Shown here piece after piece: positions 15,813 through 22,770 of a stretch of 64,000 nucleotides of DNA. The notes below the pieces were generated by a model. It ran no database searches. It was not told where the DNA came from and was given only the letters and a program-made list of their open reading frames with translations. The stretch is taken from positions 620,001 to 684,000 of the forward strand of contig NZ_CP027295.1 of NCBI RefSeq assembly GCF_005490785.1. The letters run 5' to 3'. Both the position numbers and the translations under genes were made by a program. This DNA is from Brachybacterium sp. SGAir0954 (GTDB lineage Bacteria > Actinomycetota > Actinomycetes > Actinomycetales > Dermabacteraceae). Position 1 is the stretch's first letter. Every line of letters begins with the position of its first letter.

Positions 15813-16478
15813 GTGCTGGCGCTTCCCGAGCACCTGCGCGCCCCGGCGGAGCGCCTCTTCGGCGACCGTCTGGAGCTCGCGCAGCGCTTCACCGACCTCC
15901 TCGCCGAGCAGGGCGTGGAGCGCGGCCTCATCGGCCCGCGCGAGGTGGAGCGGCTGTGGGAGCGCCACATCATCAACTGCGCCCTGCTGAGCGACGCGAT
16001 CCCGGAGGACGCCGCCTCCCTCGCCGACGTCGGCTCCGGGGCGGGGCTGCCCGGCGTGGTCATCGCGATCGCCCGCCCCGACCTGCCCGTGACCCTCATC
16101 GAGACGATGCAGCGGCGCGCGACGTGGCTCGAGGAGGTCGACGCCGAGCTGGACCTGGGCCTCGAGGTGGTCCGCGCCCGCGCGGAGGAGCTGCACGGGG
16201 ACCGCGACTTCGCCGTCGTGACCGCCCGGGCGGTCGCGGCGCTCGACAAGCTCGCCAAGTGGACGATGCCGCTCGTGGCCGACGGCGGCTCGCTCATCGC
16301 CATGAAGGGCTCCTCCGCGGAGGACGAGCTCGACGCCGCGCAGAAGGTGCTGCGGCGTCTCGGCGGGGACGAGGGGACCGTGCTCCGCTGCGGGGAGGGG
16401 GAGGTCGACCTTCCCACTACAGTGGTCCACGTGCGCCGCCGCGCACGAGCAACCAGGAAGGGAGACCCCCGTGGCTGA
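15813..16478 (+). CDS. rsmG: 16S rRNA m7G527 methyltransferase RsmG
   Basis: The 221-residue protein has the SAM-binding motif DVGSGAGLPGVVIAIARPD and the family signature of the GidB methyltransferases (ALDKLAKWTMPLVADGGSLI). It methylates G527 of 16S rRNA; loss usually gives low-level streptomycin resistance. It starts at GTG 15813, 8 bp after jag, and overlaps parA by 8 bp. Confidence 0.94.
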   Translation: MLALPEHLRAPAERLFGDRLELAQRFTDLLAEQGVERGLIGPREVERLWERHIINCALLSDAIPEDAASLADVGSGAGLPGVVIAIARPDLPVTLIETMQRRATWLEEVDAELDLGLEVVRARAEELHGDRDFAVVTARAVAALDKLAKWTMPLVADGGSLIAMKGSSAEDELDAAQKVLRRLGGDEGTVLRCGEGEVDLPTTVVHVRRRARATRKGDPRG

Positions 16479-17394
16479 TCGGCCAGGCGACGCCTCCGCG
16501 ACCGGGGGCGCCCTCGACGACACCCCGCTCATGCGGGAGCTGACGCGGGACCATGCCCGGCGCCGGGAGCTCGAGAAGGCGGCCTTCTCCGCTCCGGAGA
16601 CGACCCGCATCATCACCGTCGCGAACCAGAAGGGCGGCGTGGGGAAGACCTCCACGACCGTGAACCTGGCGGCGGCGCTCGCGATGGGCGGCCTGCACGT
16701 GCTCGTGATCGACGCGGACCCGCAGGGCAACGCCTCGACCGCCCTCGGCATCGCGCACCACGCCGAGGTGCCGAGCATGTACGAGGTGCTCGTGGACTCC
16801 GCCCCCATCGCTGACGTCGTCCAGGACGTGCCGGACATGCCGCGCCTGCAGTGCGCCCCCGCGACGATCAACCTCTCCGGTGCGGAGATCGAGCTGGTCT
16901 CGCTCGTGGCCCGGGAGAACCGCCTGCGGAACGCCATCCGTGACTTCCTCGCGCACCGCGGGGAGGAGGGTCTGCCGCGGCTGGACTACGTGCTCGTGGA
17001 CTGCCCGCCCTCGCTGGGCCTGCTGACGGTCAACGCCCTGGTCGCGGCCCGAGAGGTGCTCATCCCGATCCAGGCGGAGTACTACGCCCTCGAGGGGCTC
17101 ACGCTGCTGCTGAACAACATCGATCTGATCCGGCAGCACCTGAACCCGGATCTGCAGGTCTCCTCGATCCTCATGACGATGTACGACGCCCGGACGCGGC
17201 TCGCCGCGCAGGTCGCCGCGGAGGTGCGGGAGCACTTCCCCGAGCAGACCCTCGTCACGACGATCCCGCGCTCGGTGCGGATCTCGGAGGCGCCGAGCTA
17301 CGGGCAGACGGTCCTCACGTACGATCCCGGGTCGAGCGGGGCCCTGGCCTACCGGGCCGCGGCGCACGAGATCACCGTCCGTCCCGCCCCGTGA
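16471..17394 (+). CDS. parA: Chromosome partitioning ATPase ParA
   Basis: The 307-residue ParA/Soj ATPase has the deviant Walker A KGGVGKT (residues 54-60), the A' region VLIDADPQGNAS and the Walker B-like YVLVDCPPSLGLL. It moves ParB-parS complexes over the nucleoid. The first ~45 residues are an N-terminal extension rich in charged residues, containing MRELTRDHARRRELEKA. It starts with GTG inside the end of rsmG, and parB follows after 91 bp. Confidence 0.95.
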   Translation: MADRPGDASATGGALDDTPLMRELTRDHARRRELEKAAFSAPETTRIITVANQKGGVGKTSTTVNLAAALAMGGLHVLVIDADPQGNASTALGIAHHAEVPSMYEVLVDSAPIADVVQDVPDMPRLQCAPATINLSGAEIELVSLVARENRLRNAIRDFLAHRGEEGLPRLDYVLVDCPPSLGLLTVNALVAAREVLIPIQAEYYALEGLTLLLNNIDLIRQHLNPDLQVSSILMTMYDARTRLAAQVAAEVREHFPEQTLVTTIPRSVRISEAPSYGQTVLTYDPGSSGALAYRAAAHEITVRPAP

Positions 17395-17485
17395 CACCCC
17401 TCTTCCCGTCCGCCGTTCGGCCGTCCCCTGCGGACCGGGATCGACTTCGGCCCATGCACGTTTGCTTCTCGGAAGGACCACGGAG

Positions 17486-19351
17486 ATGACGCAGAAACGA
17501 GGACTCGGACGCGGACTCGGCGCCCTGATCCCCGGCGCGGGATCGGCACCGGCGACCACGCCGACCCCGGAGCTGCGCACCCGCACGCCCCGCACCGATT
17601 CCCCGAGTGAGCGCGTTGCGTCGGAGCGCCCCGTGGACATGTTCTTCAGCGGCGACCGCGTGGGCGAGGACGATGCCGCATCCCGTGGGCGCAGCAACCC
17701 CCGTGACCTCGCCGGCGACATGGCCAAGGCCGCCGCCGAGCGCCGCGGCCGGGGCACGCGCACCGCCTCCCGCGCCGCTGCGGAGGAGGAGAAGGCGCCG
17801 AGCACCCGCCGCCGCAGCTCCTCCACGAGCGCGCCGGCGAAGAGCTCCCCCGCGAAGAAGAGCACCCCGGCGAAGAAGAGCGCCGCCGCGTCCTCGGCAT
17901 CGAAGTCCACCTCCTCGAAGGCGTCCTCGTCGACGACCACCAGCTCGAAGCCGGCTGCTGCGAAGAGCTCCTCCTCGAAGGCCGCGGCATCGACGTCGGC
18001 CACCTCGAAGCAGGCCACCTCGAAGGCGACGCCGTCGAAGGCCGCTGCCTCGACGAGCACGGCCTCGAAGGAGAACTCGGCGTCGACGGCCGCTCCCTCG
18101 ACGGCCGCCGCCGAGAAGCCCTCGTCGTCCTCGAAGGTCGCCGGGTCCACGTCAGCCGATGAGTCCTCGACGCCCTCCGCGTCCACGACGGCTGCGGAGA
18201 CCCCGGCGAGCACAGCCCCGGCGCCCGCCGCCGAGAGCGCCCCGTCGGCCCCGGTCGAGCCGACCACCCGGGTGACCGCTCCCCCGGAGGAGGAGAGAGC
18301 TCCGGAGGTGTCGACGGCGGAGAGCACCGAGGCCCCGGCGGCGGAGGAGGCCCTCTCCTCGCCCGCCGAGTCGAGCCCCGTGGTCGACGTGCAGCCGGTC
18401 GATCTGACGCCCGCCCAGGCCCGCGCCGCGGCGTCGGGGACCGAGGAGATCGAGGAGCCCGTCGCGCCGGAGGAGCCGTCCACGGCCGAGGAGCCCGTCT
18501 CTTCCGCCACGGACGACAACAGCCTGCTCCCCGTGCCCGGGGCGGAGTTCGCCGAGATCCCGATCCACGAGATCCGGGAGAACCCTCGGAACCCCCGTAC
18601 GCTCTTCGACGACGATGAGCTCGATGAGCTCGCCTTCTCCGTGCGCCACGTCGGCGTGCTGCAGCCCGTCGTCGTCCGGCCGATCCCGGTCACCGAGGAC
18701 GGCGAGTCCTTCGAGCTCGTCATGGGCGAGCGCCGTTGGCGCGCCGCCCGCCGTGCCGGCCTCCCCTCGATCCCGGCGATCATCCGGGAGACGAGCGACG
18801 ACGACCTCCTGCGGGACGCGCTGCTCGAGAACCTCCATCGGTCCCAGCTGAACCCGCTCGAGGAGGCCGCCGCATACCAGCAGCTGCTCGACGACTTCGG
18901 CTGCACGCAGGACGAGCTCGGCGAGCGGATCGGTCGCTCGCGGCCCCAGATCACCAACACCCTGCGGCTGCTGCGCCTCCCCGCGCTCGTCCAGCGCCGG
19001 CTCGCGAGCGGTGCCCTGAGCGCCGGTCACGCCCGTGCCCTGCTCTCCCTGGACGATCCCTCGCTCATGGAGGAGCTCGCGCAGCGCATCGTCTCGGAGG
19101 GGCTCTCCGTGCGCGCCGTGGAGCGTCTGGTGGCCCGTGGTGGGCAGCAGGCCCCCGCACGCACCGTGCGCCGCTCCAGCTACGATCCGCACGTCGTGGA
19201 CCTCACCAGCCGGCTCTCCAACCGCCTGGAGACCCAGGTGCGCATCGACGTGGGCAAGCGCAAGGGCAAGATCACCCTGGAGTTCACCAACCTCGAGGAT
19301 CTCGAGCGCCTGGTGGAGACCATGGGGCTCGAGACCTCCGTGGAGGACTGA
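17486..19351 (+). CDS. parB: Chromosome partitioning protein ParB with very long disordered N-terminal half
   Basis: The 621-residue ParB begins with the usual ParA-contact peptide MTQKRGLGRGLGALIPGAG. The conserved ParB core begins only at about residue 354 (FAEIPIHEIRENPRNPR), with the CTP-site motifs GERRWRAARRAG and ENLHRSQLNPLEEA, a helix-turn-helix (TQDELGERIGRSRPQITN) and the C-terminal dimer domain. Between lie ~330 residues of low-complexity sequence: first Lys/Ser/Ala/Thr-rich (AKKSTPAKKSAAAS-type repeats resembling histone H1 tails), then acidic Glu/Pro/Ala-rich. Typical ParB is 300-400 residues. The ATG at 17486 follows GGAAGG and GGAG. A parS array follows the gene. Confidence 0.95.
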   Translation: MTQKRGLGRGLGALIPGAGSAPATTPTPELRTRTPRTDSPSERVASERPVDMFFSGDRVGEDDAASRGRSNPRDLAGDMAKAAAERRGRGTRTASRAAAEEEKAPSTRRRSSSTSAPAKSSPAKKSTPAKKSAAASSASKSTSSKASSSTTTSSKPAAAKSSSSKAAASTSATSKQATSKATPSKAAASTSTASKENSASTAAPSTAAAEKPSSSSKVAGSTSADESSTPSASTTAAETPASTAPAPAAESAPSAPVEPTTRVTAPPEEERAPEVSTAESTEAPAAEEALSSPAESSPVVDVQPVDLTPAQARAAASGTEEIEEPVAPEEPSTAEEPVSSATDDNSLLPVPGAEFAEIPIHEIRENPRNPRTLFDDDELDELAFSVRHVGVLQPVVVRPIPVTEDGESFELVMGERRWRAARRAGLPSIPAIIRETSDDDLLRDALLENLHRSQLNPLEEAAAYQQLLDDFGCTQDELGERIGRSRPQITNTLRLLRLPALVQRRLASGALSAGHARALLSLDDPSLMEELAQRIVSEGLSVRAVERLVARGGQQAPARTVRRSSYDPHVVDLTSRLSNRLETQVRIDVGKRKGKITLEFTNLEDLERLVETMGLETSVED

Positions 19352-19404
19352 CCCTCCCCGACTGCTCTGCACGTCTCGGAGAACCTGCAGCGACTCTTCG
19401 TGCC

Positions 19405-19436
19405 ACGGGCCCGCACCCACAGGGGTGCGGGCCCGT
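19405..19436 (+). terminator. parB terminator hairpin
   Basis: A 14-bp perfect GC stem (19405-19418 with 19423-19436) with loop ACAG lies 54 nt after the parB stop. Confidence 0.75.
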
Positions 19437-19604
19437 CGCGCATCCCCGGGAGGGGAGAGGGTGACGAGTGTGATGTACCGATACACCCTAGAAGTCCGAT
19501 GTGTACGGTTCACCACCGAGGTAAGTGGTGGAGTCCCCGAGAGCGCCCGTGGGATGCATGCGGCGAGGGCCGGGGTCGGCGCGGGTGAGGTCACTCGCTC
19601 GACG

Positions 19605-19636
19605 TTGTCCACCGATGTGCACAACTCTGTGGATTC
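19605..19636 (-). repeat. DnaA-box cluster left of the parS array
   Basis: TTGTCCACC (19605-19613), TGTGCACAA (19616-19624) and TGTGGATTC (19628-19636). Read on the minus strand the last two are boxes separated by GAG, the same arrangement as at 10830-10850. Confidence 0.6.
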
Positions 19637-19934
19637 GGCCCCCGACCCCGCGATGAGCTCCCCTCGCCGACCGTGAGCTCGGTTCGCGTACCGCATGACT
19701 GCCAGTAGAGAGGAGCGGTGGTGCTCGCGAGTGAGCGACCTGAACGTCAGCCGCCGGGTGGGCGCTCCCGGCCGGTGTCACGTGGGGCCGTGGCGTCTCG
19801 GGGTCGCCGCGGGTGTGGGCACGTCCTTCGGACACACGTTAAACCCCCCCCCAGGAGAGGGATCGGTGGCCGGACAGCACGCCGTTCCGCCCGGCACCTG
19901 TGGTGGGCCCGACATTCTTGCAGGTCACCGGCAT

Positions 19935-21587
19935 GTTCCCCGTGAAACATGAACGGCTTGCCCCGTCGGCATGGGGTCCGAACGAGCTGGGTACACACTC
20001 TTGCTCCATTCGACCCCACCCTCCTTCCCCCGCGAACCGCTCACGTCTGACACAGCGCAGGGTGGGGCCGGCTGCCGAGGGGAGGGTGCGATGGGTGAGT
20101 TTCCCGTGAAACGGAACGGAATGTTGGACCGCGACAGCAGGAGCAGAGGAAGCAATGCCCCCTTTCTCAGAGCTGTTGGCCATGTCGTAGCTCTCTCCCC
20201 TCAACGGCGGTTCGAAGTCGTTCGTGCACGCGCAGGCCAGAACGGCCGGAGAGGACTGCGGGTGTCGAAGCTTCACGTGAAACGCGTGCGGGGGGCCCAC
20301 CGATGGCCCGCAACGCGGCGCCGGCCGACGTGCTCGCTGATCGGCACAGTGCGCCCCCGCCCGATGAGGAGCACGTGAACAGTGATGTGCCCACTCCCCC
20401 CAGACGATGCTCTGCCGCGATGCGACGGCTACCCACGCACGACGCGAGAACCTTGCGCCTCGGCGACGTCGTTTCCCGTGAAACACAGTTGCATCCATAC
20501 ACAGATCGGAGAGTTTCCCGTGAAACTCGCGTCGGTGTAGAGCGGTTCTGTCGCGTTTCCCGTGGAACACAACACGCCCCGCGCACGACGCACCAGCCGT
20601 GACTCGGAGAGGGGGCATCGTCGTCGGTTGCGCATGGGCTCGCCATGATCACGCTGATGTGCAGCGCGGGGGCAGATCGTGAAGGGCTGCGAGTTCGCAG
20701 CATCACGACACGGCGACAACGCGTTAGGCGCCAACCTCGGTGTTTCCCGTGGAACTCGCCCGCCGTTCTGTCTCCCCTGGACGGAGACAGCCACGCATGG
20801 CAATCAGTGGGAGGAGTGGCCAGGTACTTGTTGCCGAGACATCAATGACGGAGGAGTTGGCAGCACCCATGAGGACTCCTGACATCGCCTCTCCTCTTCT
20901 GAAGAGTGTTCACGAGCGTTGATCAACAAAGGACGCCTTGTTTCACGGGAAACTCGCCGCAAGGTCGCTCTCTTGCGGGGAGGCGCGAGTCCAGTCCAGG
21001 GAGCGCACACTCGCCTTCCGTGCGTTTCACGTGAAACTTCCGCCCTTTCCCAAAATGCCGTGCTGTGGGAGTCGAGGTCGACGGTACCCGAGGCTGTCGA
21101 TGGAGACACGACTCAGACCACACTCCATGTCGACGGAGTCTTTCGGGAAGCTCACGATGCTGTTCTTCGGCACGCAGGTGGCTCATCGCCGGAGGCCGGC
21201 GACCGACGTTTCACGCGAAACCAGTCCCGGCGCGGGCTCGGAGCGCGGCAGAGGCGCTGTCATTCTCGTCCAGGTCATCTCTGCTGGTGAGCATGCATAT
21301 GGGCTCGGCGTGCCGAGGCCATCGACTGCTGCGGCCAGAGAAGCAGCTCGACGCGCAGAATCGACGTTTCACGGGGAACGGACGTCGGCGCCCGGTCCTT
21401 GATCCGCGCGAGAGAGTAGGACACGACCACCAGCGTCTCTCCCGCGTGCGCACTAAGTGCCCGAGACAGGCCCCCGAGGGTTTCACGGCGAACCATGAGG
21501 ACATGGGACCCCGTCGGGAGGGACAGAGACAACCCCGCTAGACGCGCCAAGCCAAAGCGGAGGCACGGGTCCTGTTTCGCGTGAACC
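19935..21587. repeat. parS: parS array: thirteen ParB-binding-like sites
   Basis: Matches to the 14-bp core GTTTCACGTGAAAC, given as start (matching bases): 19935 (12), 20099 (13), 20270 (13), 20471 (13), 20513 (13), 20555 (12), 20742 (12), 20940 (13), 21024 (14, perfect), 21208 (13), 21366 (12), 21480 (11), 21574 (12). Sites 20471, 20513 and 20555 are exactly 42 bp apart and 20940 to 21024 is 84 bp, multiples of four helical turns. A weaker site (10/14, with CACGTG core) is at 19775. I saw no other such site in the window. Confidence 0.85.
21024..21037. promoter_or_regulatory. parS: Perfect parS site
   Basis: GTTTCACGTGAAAC is the exact palindromic ParB-binding core known from Bacillus and Streptomyces. 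It is the only perfect copy in the array and lies near its middle. Confidence 0.92.
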
Positions 21588-21936
21588 CCGAGAAGAACGA
21601 CATGATGAGTTGTTGTCGTTGATGGGAGAAGTCCTGCCGTGGTGCAGATGACGAGGTGGTGGACCGCAGCTGGACGGACGGCGCGCAGTGTGGAGTGCCG
21701 GGGCGGGAGCGGTCGCGGTCAGCAGATGTCGTGAGCGCGCGACAGCGCTCAGATGTTCGTCGTGGAACCACTCCCCGGCTGCTCCGGCGATGTCCATACT
21801 CCGTTGGGAGATCAGGTAGAGAGGTCGGGGCAGCCGTGAGAGCTCGACGCCGCGCACACACGACATGAGTCGTCGCGACGTCGCGACGATGCGGGGAGAG
21901 TGCTCCGACGCCACTTTTGCACACTGTGGGAAACGG

Positions 21937-22179
21937 TGTGGACAGCGATAGACGCGGTCCCCAAGAGATCCAACCAGATCGGCGGACTATGACCCATACC
22001 ACAGGACCAATTGTTGGGCACCCCTTCCTGGAGATCAGTATCACCGCAGGTCACAGCACGATCAGCCCGACACTCGGGCGATCAGAGTCTCGCTGCTCTC
22101 TCCACACACCAATGTGGATAACTCTGTGGACGGAGCCCGCGAAGGCTGTGGACTTCGATGTGGACAACCATGTGGATGC
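21937..22179 (-). repeat. DnaA-box cluster right of the parS array
   Basis: Boxes written on the plus strand: TGTGGACAG (21937-21945), TGTGGATAA (22113-22121, perfect), TGTGGACGG (22125-22133), TGTGGACTT (22147-22155), TGTGGACAA (22159-22167, perfect) and TGTGGATGC (22171-22179). The last five lie within 67 bp in one orientation, a density comparable to the dnaN-dnaA gap. Confidence 0.7.
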
Positions 22180-22266
22180 GGGGATCGGTGCACGTCATCG
22201 CGGTGAGTCCGGGGCAACTTGACGTGCCCGTCAGCGGCACTTCGTGGACTCCTGTGCAGCGGTTGC

Positions 22267-22770
22267 TCAGCTCCGCAACGGGCCGAACTCCTCGTCGATG
22301 ACGTGCTTCGGGAGAGCTCCCGTGCGTCGATGCAGCTCTGTCCAGGAGCCACGGAGCTCGATCCGCTCCCCTGTGGGGGTCGGGAGGAGCGTGGAGGTGC
22401 GGACGGTCCGGCGGACGGTGGAGCGCCCGGTCGTGCAACGCTCAGCGTCGGGAGCATCGGGCGCGGCGGAAGGGCTGGGCGCGGCGGAGGTATCCGGGAC
22501 GGCGGCGGGTTCGCCGGGCCCCGCGTGCTCGAGCAGCAGCCAGGTGGGCAGCACCTCGACCCCGAGGGCATCCAGGAGGGCCGGTTCGGGGTCCAGGAGG
22601 TGCACGGCGGTGCGATCGGGTCCCCAGCGGCGGGAGAGCTCCCTCAGGATCGTCACCGCAGGGCGCGCCGGAGCGCACCATGACGCCGTGACGAGGACGA
22701 GCAGCTCAGAGCCCGCAGGGGCGGCTCCCTGCTCGGGAGCCGCCCCTGCGGCCGGATCGGTGCTGTTCAT
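22267..22770 (-). CDS. Thioredoxin-fold protein with broken active-site CxxC
   Basis: The 167-residue protein has a thioredoxin-like N-terminal half: a strand LLVLVTAS, the active-site loop WCAPA in place of WCGPC (Cys32 kept, second Cys replaced by Ala35), helix PAVTILRELSRRWG and the cis-Pro region VEVLPTWLLL. A ~40-residue Pro/Ala linker follows, then a C-terminal part (LLPTPTGERIELRGSWTELH) with Cys112 before it. It lies 41 bp downstream of trxB, where other actinobacteria carry trxA. A normal dithiol mechanism is not possible with these residues, so a monothiol or non-redox role is likely. Confidence 0.75.
   Translation of the reverse strand: MNSTDPAAGAAPEQGAAPAGSELLVLVTASWCAPARPAVTILRELSRRWGPDRTAVHLLDPEPALLDALGVEVLPTWLLLEHAGPGEPAAVPDTSAAPSPSAAPDAPDAERCTTGRSTVRRTVRTSTLLPTPTGERIELRGSWTELHRRTGALPKHVIDEEFGPLRS

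Follow-up and report, generated by a model that had tools for sequence, protein, structure and literature searches.

The window analysed here, i.e. the whole stretch of 64,000 nucleotides from Brachybacterium sp. SGAir0954, features a parA–parB pair followed by a gene-free gap that contains thirteen parS-like 14-mers. One flank of the gap is formed by dnaN, dnaA, yidD, yidC, the gene of an R3H protein, gidB, parA, and parB, and the other by a thioredoxin-reductase-type (trx) gene. The features are the following:

16471..17394, + strand: parA, Walker ATPase (Pfam AAA_31, 2e-54; CbiA, 3.1e-24)
17486..19351, + strand: parB (Pfam ParB_N, 3.5e-32; HTH_ParB, 1e-35; ParB_C, 4.2e-10)
17501..18556, + strand: part of parB encoding the 352-aa low-complexity linker, from GLGRGLGALIP to the ParB_N domain
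19352..22266, no strand: gene-free gap from parB to the next conserved ORF
19935..19948, no strand: parS-like site 1, two mismatches, both in the left half
20099..20112, no strand: parS-like site 2, one mismatch, left half, position 6 C
20270..20283, no strand: parS-like site 3, one mismatch, left half, position 2 C
20471..20484, no strand: parS-like site 4, one mismatch, left half, position 6 C
20513..20526, no strand: parS-like site 5, one mismatch, left half, position 6 C
20555..20568, no strand: parS-like site 6, two mismatches, one in each half
20742..20755, no strand: parS-like site 7, two mismatches, one in each half
20940..20953, no strand: parS-like site 8, one mismatch, right half, position 9 G
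21024..21037, no strand: parS-like site 9, perfect GTTTCACGTGAAAC, sole perfect copy in the genome
21208..21221, no strand: parS-like site 10, one mismatch, right half
21366..21379, no strand: parS-like site 11, two mismatches, both in the right half
21480..21493, no strand: parS-like site 12, three mismatches, all in the right half
21574..21587, no strand: parS-like site 13, two mismatches, one in each half

The listed ORF of parB starts with TTG at 17462, and the ATG ahead of TQKRGLGRGLG lies at 17486. The locus carries the parts of a ParABS system: a ParA Walker ATPase gene adjoins parB; ParB combines a CTPase N-domain, an HTH, and a C-terminal dimer domain; and parS consensus sites are confined to the neighborhood of parB and dnaA, in this genome and in the genus. 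ParB is 83–92% identical to its counterparts in thirteen named Brachybacterium loci (L020–L032), and its solved relatives, as judged by sequence, are 6t1f (a Caulobacter-type ParB), 6sdk, and 7bnk. GC skew along the 64 kb, judged by the window profile only, tracks gene orientation. Among nine ORFs tested in the gap (19351–22267), none matches Pfam at E ≤ 0.1, and the gap has no Rfam match at gathering score; lacking these as well as alignable sequence, it is ruled out as a site of hidden genes. The ORF on the trx side (22267–22770) is likewise without a Pfam match.

The initial annotation had described thirteen parS-like 14-mers at 19935–21587, mostly imperfect and denser than chance allows. 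All thirteen are confirmed, and imperfect copies do predominate, with one perfect, six one-mismatch, five two-mismatch, and one three-mismatch site. The number expected in the window is 0.50, and 13 was reached in none of 100 shuffles. A scan of the whole genome (3,410,111 bases, ≤2 mismatches) yields 13 sites, 12 of them in the array and a single one outside (G000:C1:1982397), so the 14-mers are not common elsewhere; a reversed control pattern gives 1 match genome-wide at the same threshold. The zone is gene-free as claimed; the array does not follow parB directly, starting 583 bp past the parB stop.

Degenerate halves are polar along this array: All five strictly left-degenerate sites and none of the four strictly right-degenerate ones are among the first seven (p 0.008). 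Across the genus, the ratio of position-6 C to position-9 G is 76:48 over the first three fifths and 23:43 over the remaining two (p 0.0007), a split picked after the data were seen, and seven other loci of the family do not show the polarity (p 0.56).

Two further elements lie in the gap. Near its parB end, an element of about 30 bp (19605..19636) contains a DnaA-box-like sequence and is 90–100% identical in at least six species among the matches listed, while the array is unalignable. Past the array, ahead of the trx-side ORF, lies a DnaA-box module (21915..22180; at least two boxes, each with ≤1 mismatch), conserved in 33 of 33 loci examined. Its boxes keep a fixed spacing in many species, and its two parts are separated by DNA slightly richer in AT. 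DnaA boxes occur around dnaA too, and the module may belong to the origin or act as a reservoir of DnaA near the centromere.

The array across Brachybacterium

The genus sample comprises 38 genomes, from which 34 loci were taken (33 congeners and the window's own); G001, G005, and G006 have no ParB match and G041 a weak one. The locus of G032 (L148), whose gap is not delimited, enters the counts of 461 sites and is left out of the spacing, DnaA-box, and alignability analyses; together with that of G039 (L162), whose parB is broken, it is also left out of the contrasts, PGLS, and the tallies of ParB residues and site positions.

Comparison of the gap in these 34 genomes, a check proposed with the annotation, establishes the dense imperfect array as a genus trait. 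The parB–trx gaps hold 461 sites (≤3 mismatches) in 105,212 bases, and the remaining 549,511 fetched bases hold 3, each with exactly three mismatches. The 461 sites divide into 5 perfect, 223 one-mismatch, 198 two-mismatch, and 35 three-mismatch copies, the perfect ones being that of the window genome and four in G024. In 33 of the 34 genomes, the number of ≤1-mismatch sites genome-wide equals that in the gap; hence, no such site lies elsewhere in these 33, and 31 of them lack any perfect site. The exception, G032, has 10 such sites genome-wide compared with 4 in the cut stretch (6 kb after parB). There is no trx gene after its parB, and the array may be split or displaced.

In 33 loci, 10–17 sites (≤3 mismatches) lie in a stretch of 1.2–2.3 kb inside a single gene-free gap. 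Their spacing has a median of 134 bp and is regular, with a coefficient of variation of 0.44 compared with 0.90 for random placement and a value under random in all 33 loci. The 42-, 42-, and 84-bp spacings noted in this genome are correct, but the helical phase read from them is not upheld: over 422 spacings in 33 genomes, no helical preference appears at 10.5 bp (Rayleigh p 0.82) or at 42 bp (p 0.90). Spacing that is regular without helical phase means that the 42/84-bp point is not general, and helical phasing of the sites is rejected genus-wide. The density exceeds that of relatives, the maximum number of ≤2-mismatch sites per 2 kb having a median of 12 (6–17) in the genus versus 3 (0–9) in 62 named non-family loci.

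The DNA around the sites is replaced almost wholly from one species to the next. On average, 1.4% of the gap can be aligned between species, versus 68% of the 2.9 kb upstream, which is coding DNA (33 loci). What can be aligned lies mostly at both ends of the gap, outside the array—deciles 9–10 account for 72%—and the flanks of individual sites are unalignable between species, save for the pair G029/G043. As the gap is nearly unalignable, the sites persist in freely changing DNA. Spacer turnover with sites kept indicates that the arrays are maintained by selection, and the conservation of number and spacing that this selection is strong; it also makes the sites of different species close to independent observations.

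The degeneracy of the sites follows a pattern. Half-site positions 1, 3, 5, and 7 are almost fixed in the genus, and positions 2, 4, and 6 vary. Most of the sites in this array pair one intact with one degraded half. Under independence of the halves, 59 perfect–perfect pairs are expected and 5 are observed; the weak–weak pair GTTTCCC/GTTTCCC is observed once, with 10.8 expected.

The ParB linker and site number in relatives

The linker between GLGRGLGALIP and the CTPase domain measures 249–476 aa in the 34 genus loci; outside the family, the median is 75 aa (range 32–203, 60 of 62 named actinobacterial loci). The linker of this ParB carries net charges of 0, +12, +6, −8, and −16 by fifths and is probably disordered, judging by its composition. 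The genus linkers run basic then acidic, as do those of long-linker Brevibacterium, less clearly in L240. The shortest linker of the genus belongs to G024, the genome with four perfect sites; among the genus loci, linker length correlates weakly with mean mismatch (rho 0.37, p 0.03, phylogeny ignored). In L162, parB lies in pieces in an 85%-complete genome, perhaps because of a sequencing frameshift. Second ParB-like proteins of 29–33% identity, probably of plasmid or other-element origin, occur in G007, G011, G028, G029, and G030.

The order sample consists of 138 non-family genomes, of which 94 were fetched and 90 have a measurable linker. Outside the family, linker length covaries with site density (rho 0.63, n=60; rho 0.49, n=90), and PGLS over the 90 loci relates it to density (p 0.014) and number (p 0.0004). 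Independent contrasts show no relation of linker to sites (r 0.009; p 0.50 by sign flip, with signs at 68 to 50), nor does PGLS within the family (p 0.15 and 0.95), and linker length and perfect fraction are unrelated in the 90 non-family loci (rho −0.06, p 0.58). Brevibacterium features both conditions: With linkers under 200 aa (n=10), there are 2–8 sites, which are 93% perfect and for the most part precede the parB stop; with linkers of at least 200 aa (n=8), there are 5–15 sites, 56% perfect and mostly after parB. Linker length and sites after parB correlate with rho 0.81 (18 of 57 genomes), and the pattern amounts to about one change on the ParB tree.

Counter-examples exist. G081, of the same family and with a linker of about 405 aa, has 7 of 12 sites perfect. 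L229 (linker 131) carries 11 sites in 2 kb, 9% of them perfect, L210 (linker 137) also 11 sites in 2 kb, and L211 (linker 149) 0 of 9 perfect, and family members with linkers of 183–205 aa already have dense arrays. Eight further family genomes and the more distant G182 have 10–18 sites near parB, 2–9 of them perfect.

In relatives, perfect sites are common, at 180 of 238 in the 62 named non-family loci and 328 of 539 (≤2 mismatches) in the 90 order loci; the Brachybacterium array is not of this mostly perfect kind, at 1 of 13 here and 5 of 461 in the genus. The contrast that had been drawn with well-studied bacteria holds for number and density but is tempered by the rest of the order, in which further lineages likewise show clusters of several sites or lack a perfect one. 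Dense clusters occur in L229, L210, and G132, and among 127 genomes of the order outside the family that carry a ≤1-mismatch site, 19 are without a perfect one; in G154, among these 19, the matches are scattered over contigs.

It is only tentatively proposed that ParB linker and centromere co-evolve, whereby the evolution of a long, disordered, basic-then-acidic tail goes along with the change of few, perfect, and partly genic parS sites into a dense, regular, imperfect array in a gene-free gap with an affinity limit on the single site, and that this has two or more origins, one in Dermabacteraceae/Brachybacterium and one in a Brevibacterium clade. This linker coupling is the bolder and less certain part of the interpretation compared with the array itself.

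The centromere and competing explanations

With parA, parB, and a dense parS array side by side, the reading of the locus as a centromere is borne out, and on sequence evidence the array is the ParABS chromosomal centromere of Brachybacterium—a genuine and uncommon version of a known system. The parA–parB operon near dnaA, the parS consensus, and the cluster beside parB are shared with other chromosomal ParABS systems with clustered parS; the difference is that Brachybacterium has 10–17 nearly all imperfect sites in 1.2–2.3 kb, whereas most relatives have few, mostly perfect ones. In S. coelicolor, parS sites span about 200 kb. In most bacteria, they cluster within 5–40 kb (PMC8357415), and S. 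venezuelae has 16–17 of them (PMC12511625). Streptomyces resembles Brachybacterium as an actinobacterium with many parS sites near oriC and differs by spreading them along the central chromosome instead of within less than 2.5 kb. Caulobacter has about 5–7 parS sites (PMC5815017), the weakest barely bound, which are alike in their differing strength and in one conserved half (GTGAAA) and are not a dense regular array as in Brachybacterium. Half-parS sites of P. aeruginosa, i.e. heptamers scattered over the genome that ParB uses (PMC10419367), likewise have one good half; Brachybacterium, by comparison, keeps both halves and confines its sites to the array. What is added to the earlier view is that imperfection is genus-wide with few perfect sites and is paired with an unusually long ParB linker. 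The main survey of parS is reportedly that of Livny (2007). Searches for Brevibacterium with parS/ParB and for Dermabacteraceae with "pars" returned unrelated titles among the matches listed, and a published mention is possible.

From the mix of mismatches and the Caulobacter measurements, graded affinity, as first suggested for this array, may fairly be inferred. The reading that is favored, with a probability of roughly 0.55, takes the centromere as a distributed array of about 13 sites that each load ParB sub-maximally and that suit a ParB with a long tail. The evenly spaced sites, mostly of one intact and one degraded half, would act as sub-maximal points of CTP-dependent clamp loading and together feed ParB clamps onto a short stretch, so that the cell would depend on site number and spacing rather than on the perfection of a single site. 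The long linker lies between the ParA-activating N-terminus and the CTPase domain, its basic block may add non-specific DNA contact, and the long tether may allow clamps crowded on 1.6 kb to still reach ParA and one another. These effects would remove the premium on perfect sites, and the strongest sites might even be harmful. For such harm, there is a precedent in Caulobacter, in which extra plasmid-borne parS costs fitness in proportion to affinity (PMC5815017).

A rival account is ordinary parS redundancy under relaxed selection, in which each site is nearly dispensable because there are many copies and GC-biased mutation erodes sites to the binding threshold, with neither an affinity ceiling nor a tie to the linker. 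It is the less probable account, though one to be taken seriously, since a saturating model without a premium on perfection by itself lowers the expected perfect sites from 64 under independence to 18.8 and improves the AIC from 4713 to 4530, and since the 19 of 127 non-family order genomes described above also do without a perfect site. Yet the 5 perfect sites observed remain a deficit under this model (P 1.8e-4), and without G024 or duplicate species, 1 is seen and 16–17 are expected (P down to 9.5e-7); an added upper penalty expects 2 and lowers the AIC to 4490, and a quadratic stabilising model was rejected as fitting worse than the saturating one (4594). Fewer perfect sites than the no-premium model predicts hint at an affinity ceiling. 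The ceiling is insecure because composition-corrected counts of halves are roughly flat and because the models miss the commonest classes: Beside a perfect partner, a perfect half occurs about as often as GTTCCAC, GCTTCAC, GTTGCAC, or GATTCAC, the excess being limited to position-6 changes by arithmetic on pair counts, and every fitted model misses GTTTCCCGTGAAAC (85 observed, 37–46 predicted) and GTTCCACGTGAAAC (16 observed, 45–47 predicted). The flat counts suit redundancy, and the strong over-representation of position-6 C does not; nor does the strong selection implied by number and spacing being held despite spacer turnover.

That excess at position 6—236 changes in 404 genus sites versus 36 in 586 other order sites (≤2 mismatches)—could also mean that ParB specificity has shifted toward NBS, the site of Noc, and that hybrid position-6 C sites are the best ones. 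The common imperfect half GTTTCCC does carry the NBS base at position 6, and the residue equivalent to 184 is R or K in Brachybacterium ParB (30 R and 2 K of 32), while a K184 variant (RTKG) of Caulobacter ParB is promiscuous (PMC7383237). A permissive residue 184 may thus let imperfect sites work; R/K is, however, found there in 92 of 95 order loci, including all-perfect-site loci such as L248. The residues that decide between parS and NBS preference, as given in PMC7383237, from which the numbering is mapped, are of parS type in the aligned HTH (R173, T179, G201); all 32 genus loci tallied have R at 173, and five genus HTH sequences have G at 201, the Q173 and R201 of Noc being absent from these. 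The sites are not of NBS type either, which would have A at position 1 and C at position 6 of both halves, position 1 being G in 457 of 461 and its mirror position C in 452 of 461, and the double hybrid GTTTCCCGGGAAAC is seen once, with 10.8 expected. As the parS-type residues make a plain specificity switch unlikely, such a switch is disfavored, and the shifted-specificity explanation is improbable. Far more remote still is a role of the 14-mers as targets of a different DNA-binding protein or as origin elements, for which the DnaA-box module, present toward the trx side of the gap in all 33 loci examined, might speak; the 14-mers match the parS consensus, adjoin parB, and are the sole close parS matches in the genomes, and the ParB of this genome is canonical.

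Seen as a distributed array of sub-maximal sites, the centromere of Brachybacterium bears on two open questions, i.e. why bacteria have several parS sites and what role the variable N-terminal part of ParB plays. The genus is a natural system in which the surrounding DNA changes freely and the number, spacing, and mismatch level of the sites hold, and in which centromere design can be set against the length of the ParB tail among close relatives. If the affinity ceiling is true, stronger would not be better for a bacterial centromere, and models of clamp loading by ParB, of condensates, and of ParA engagement would gain a clear test.
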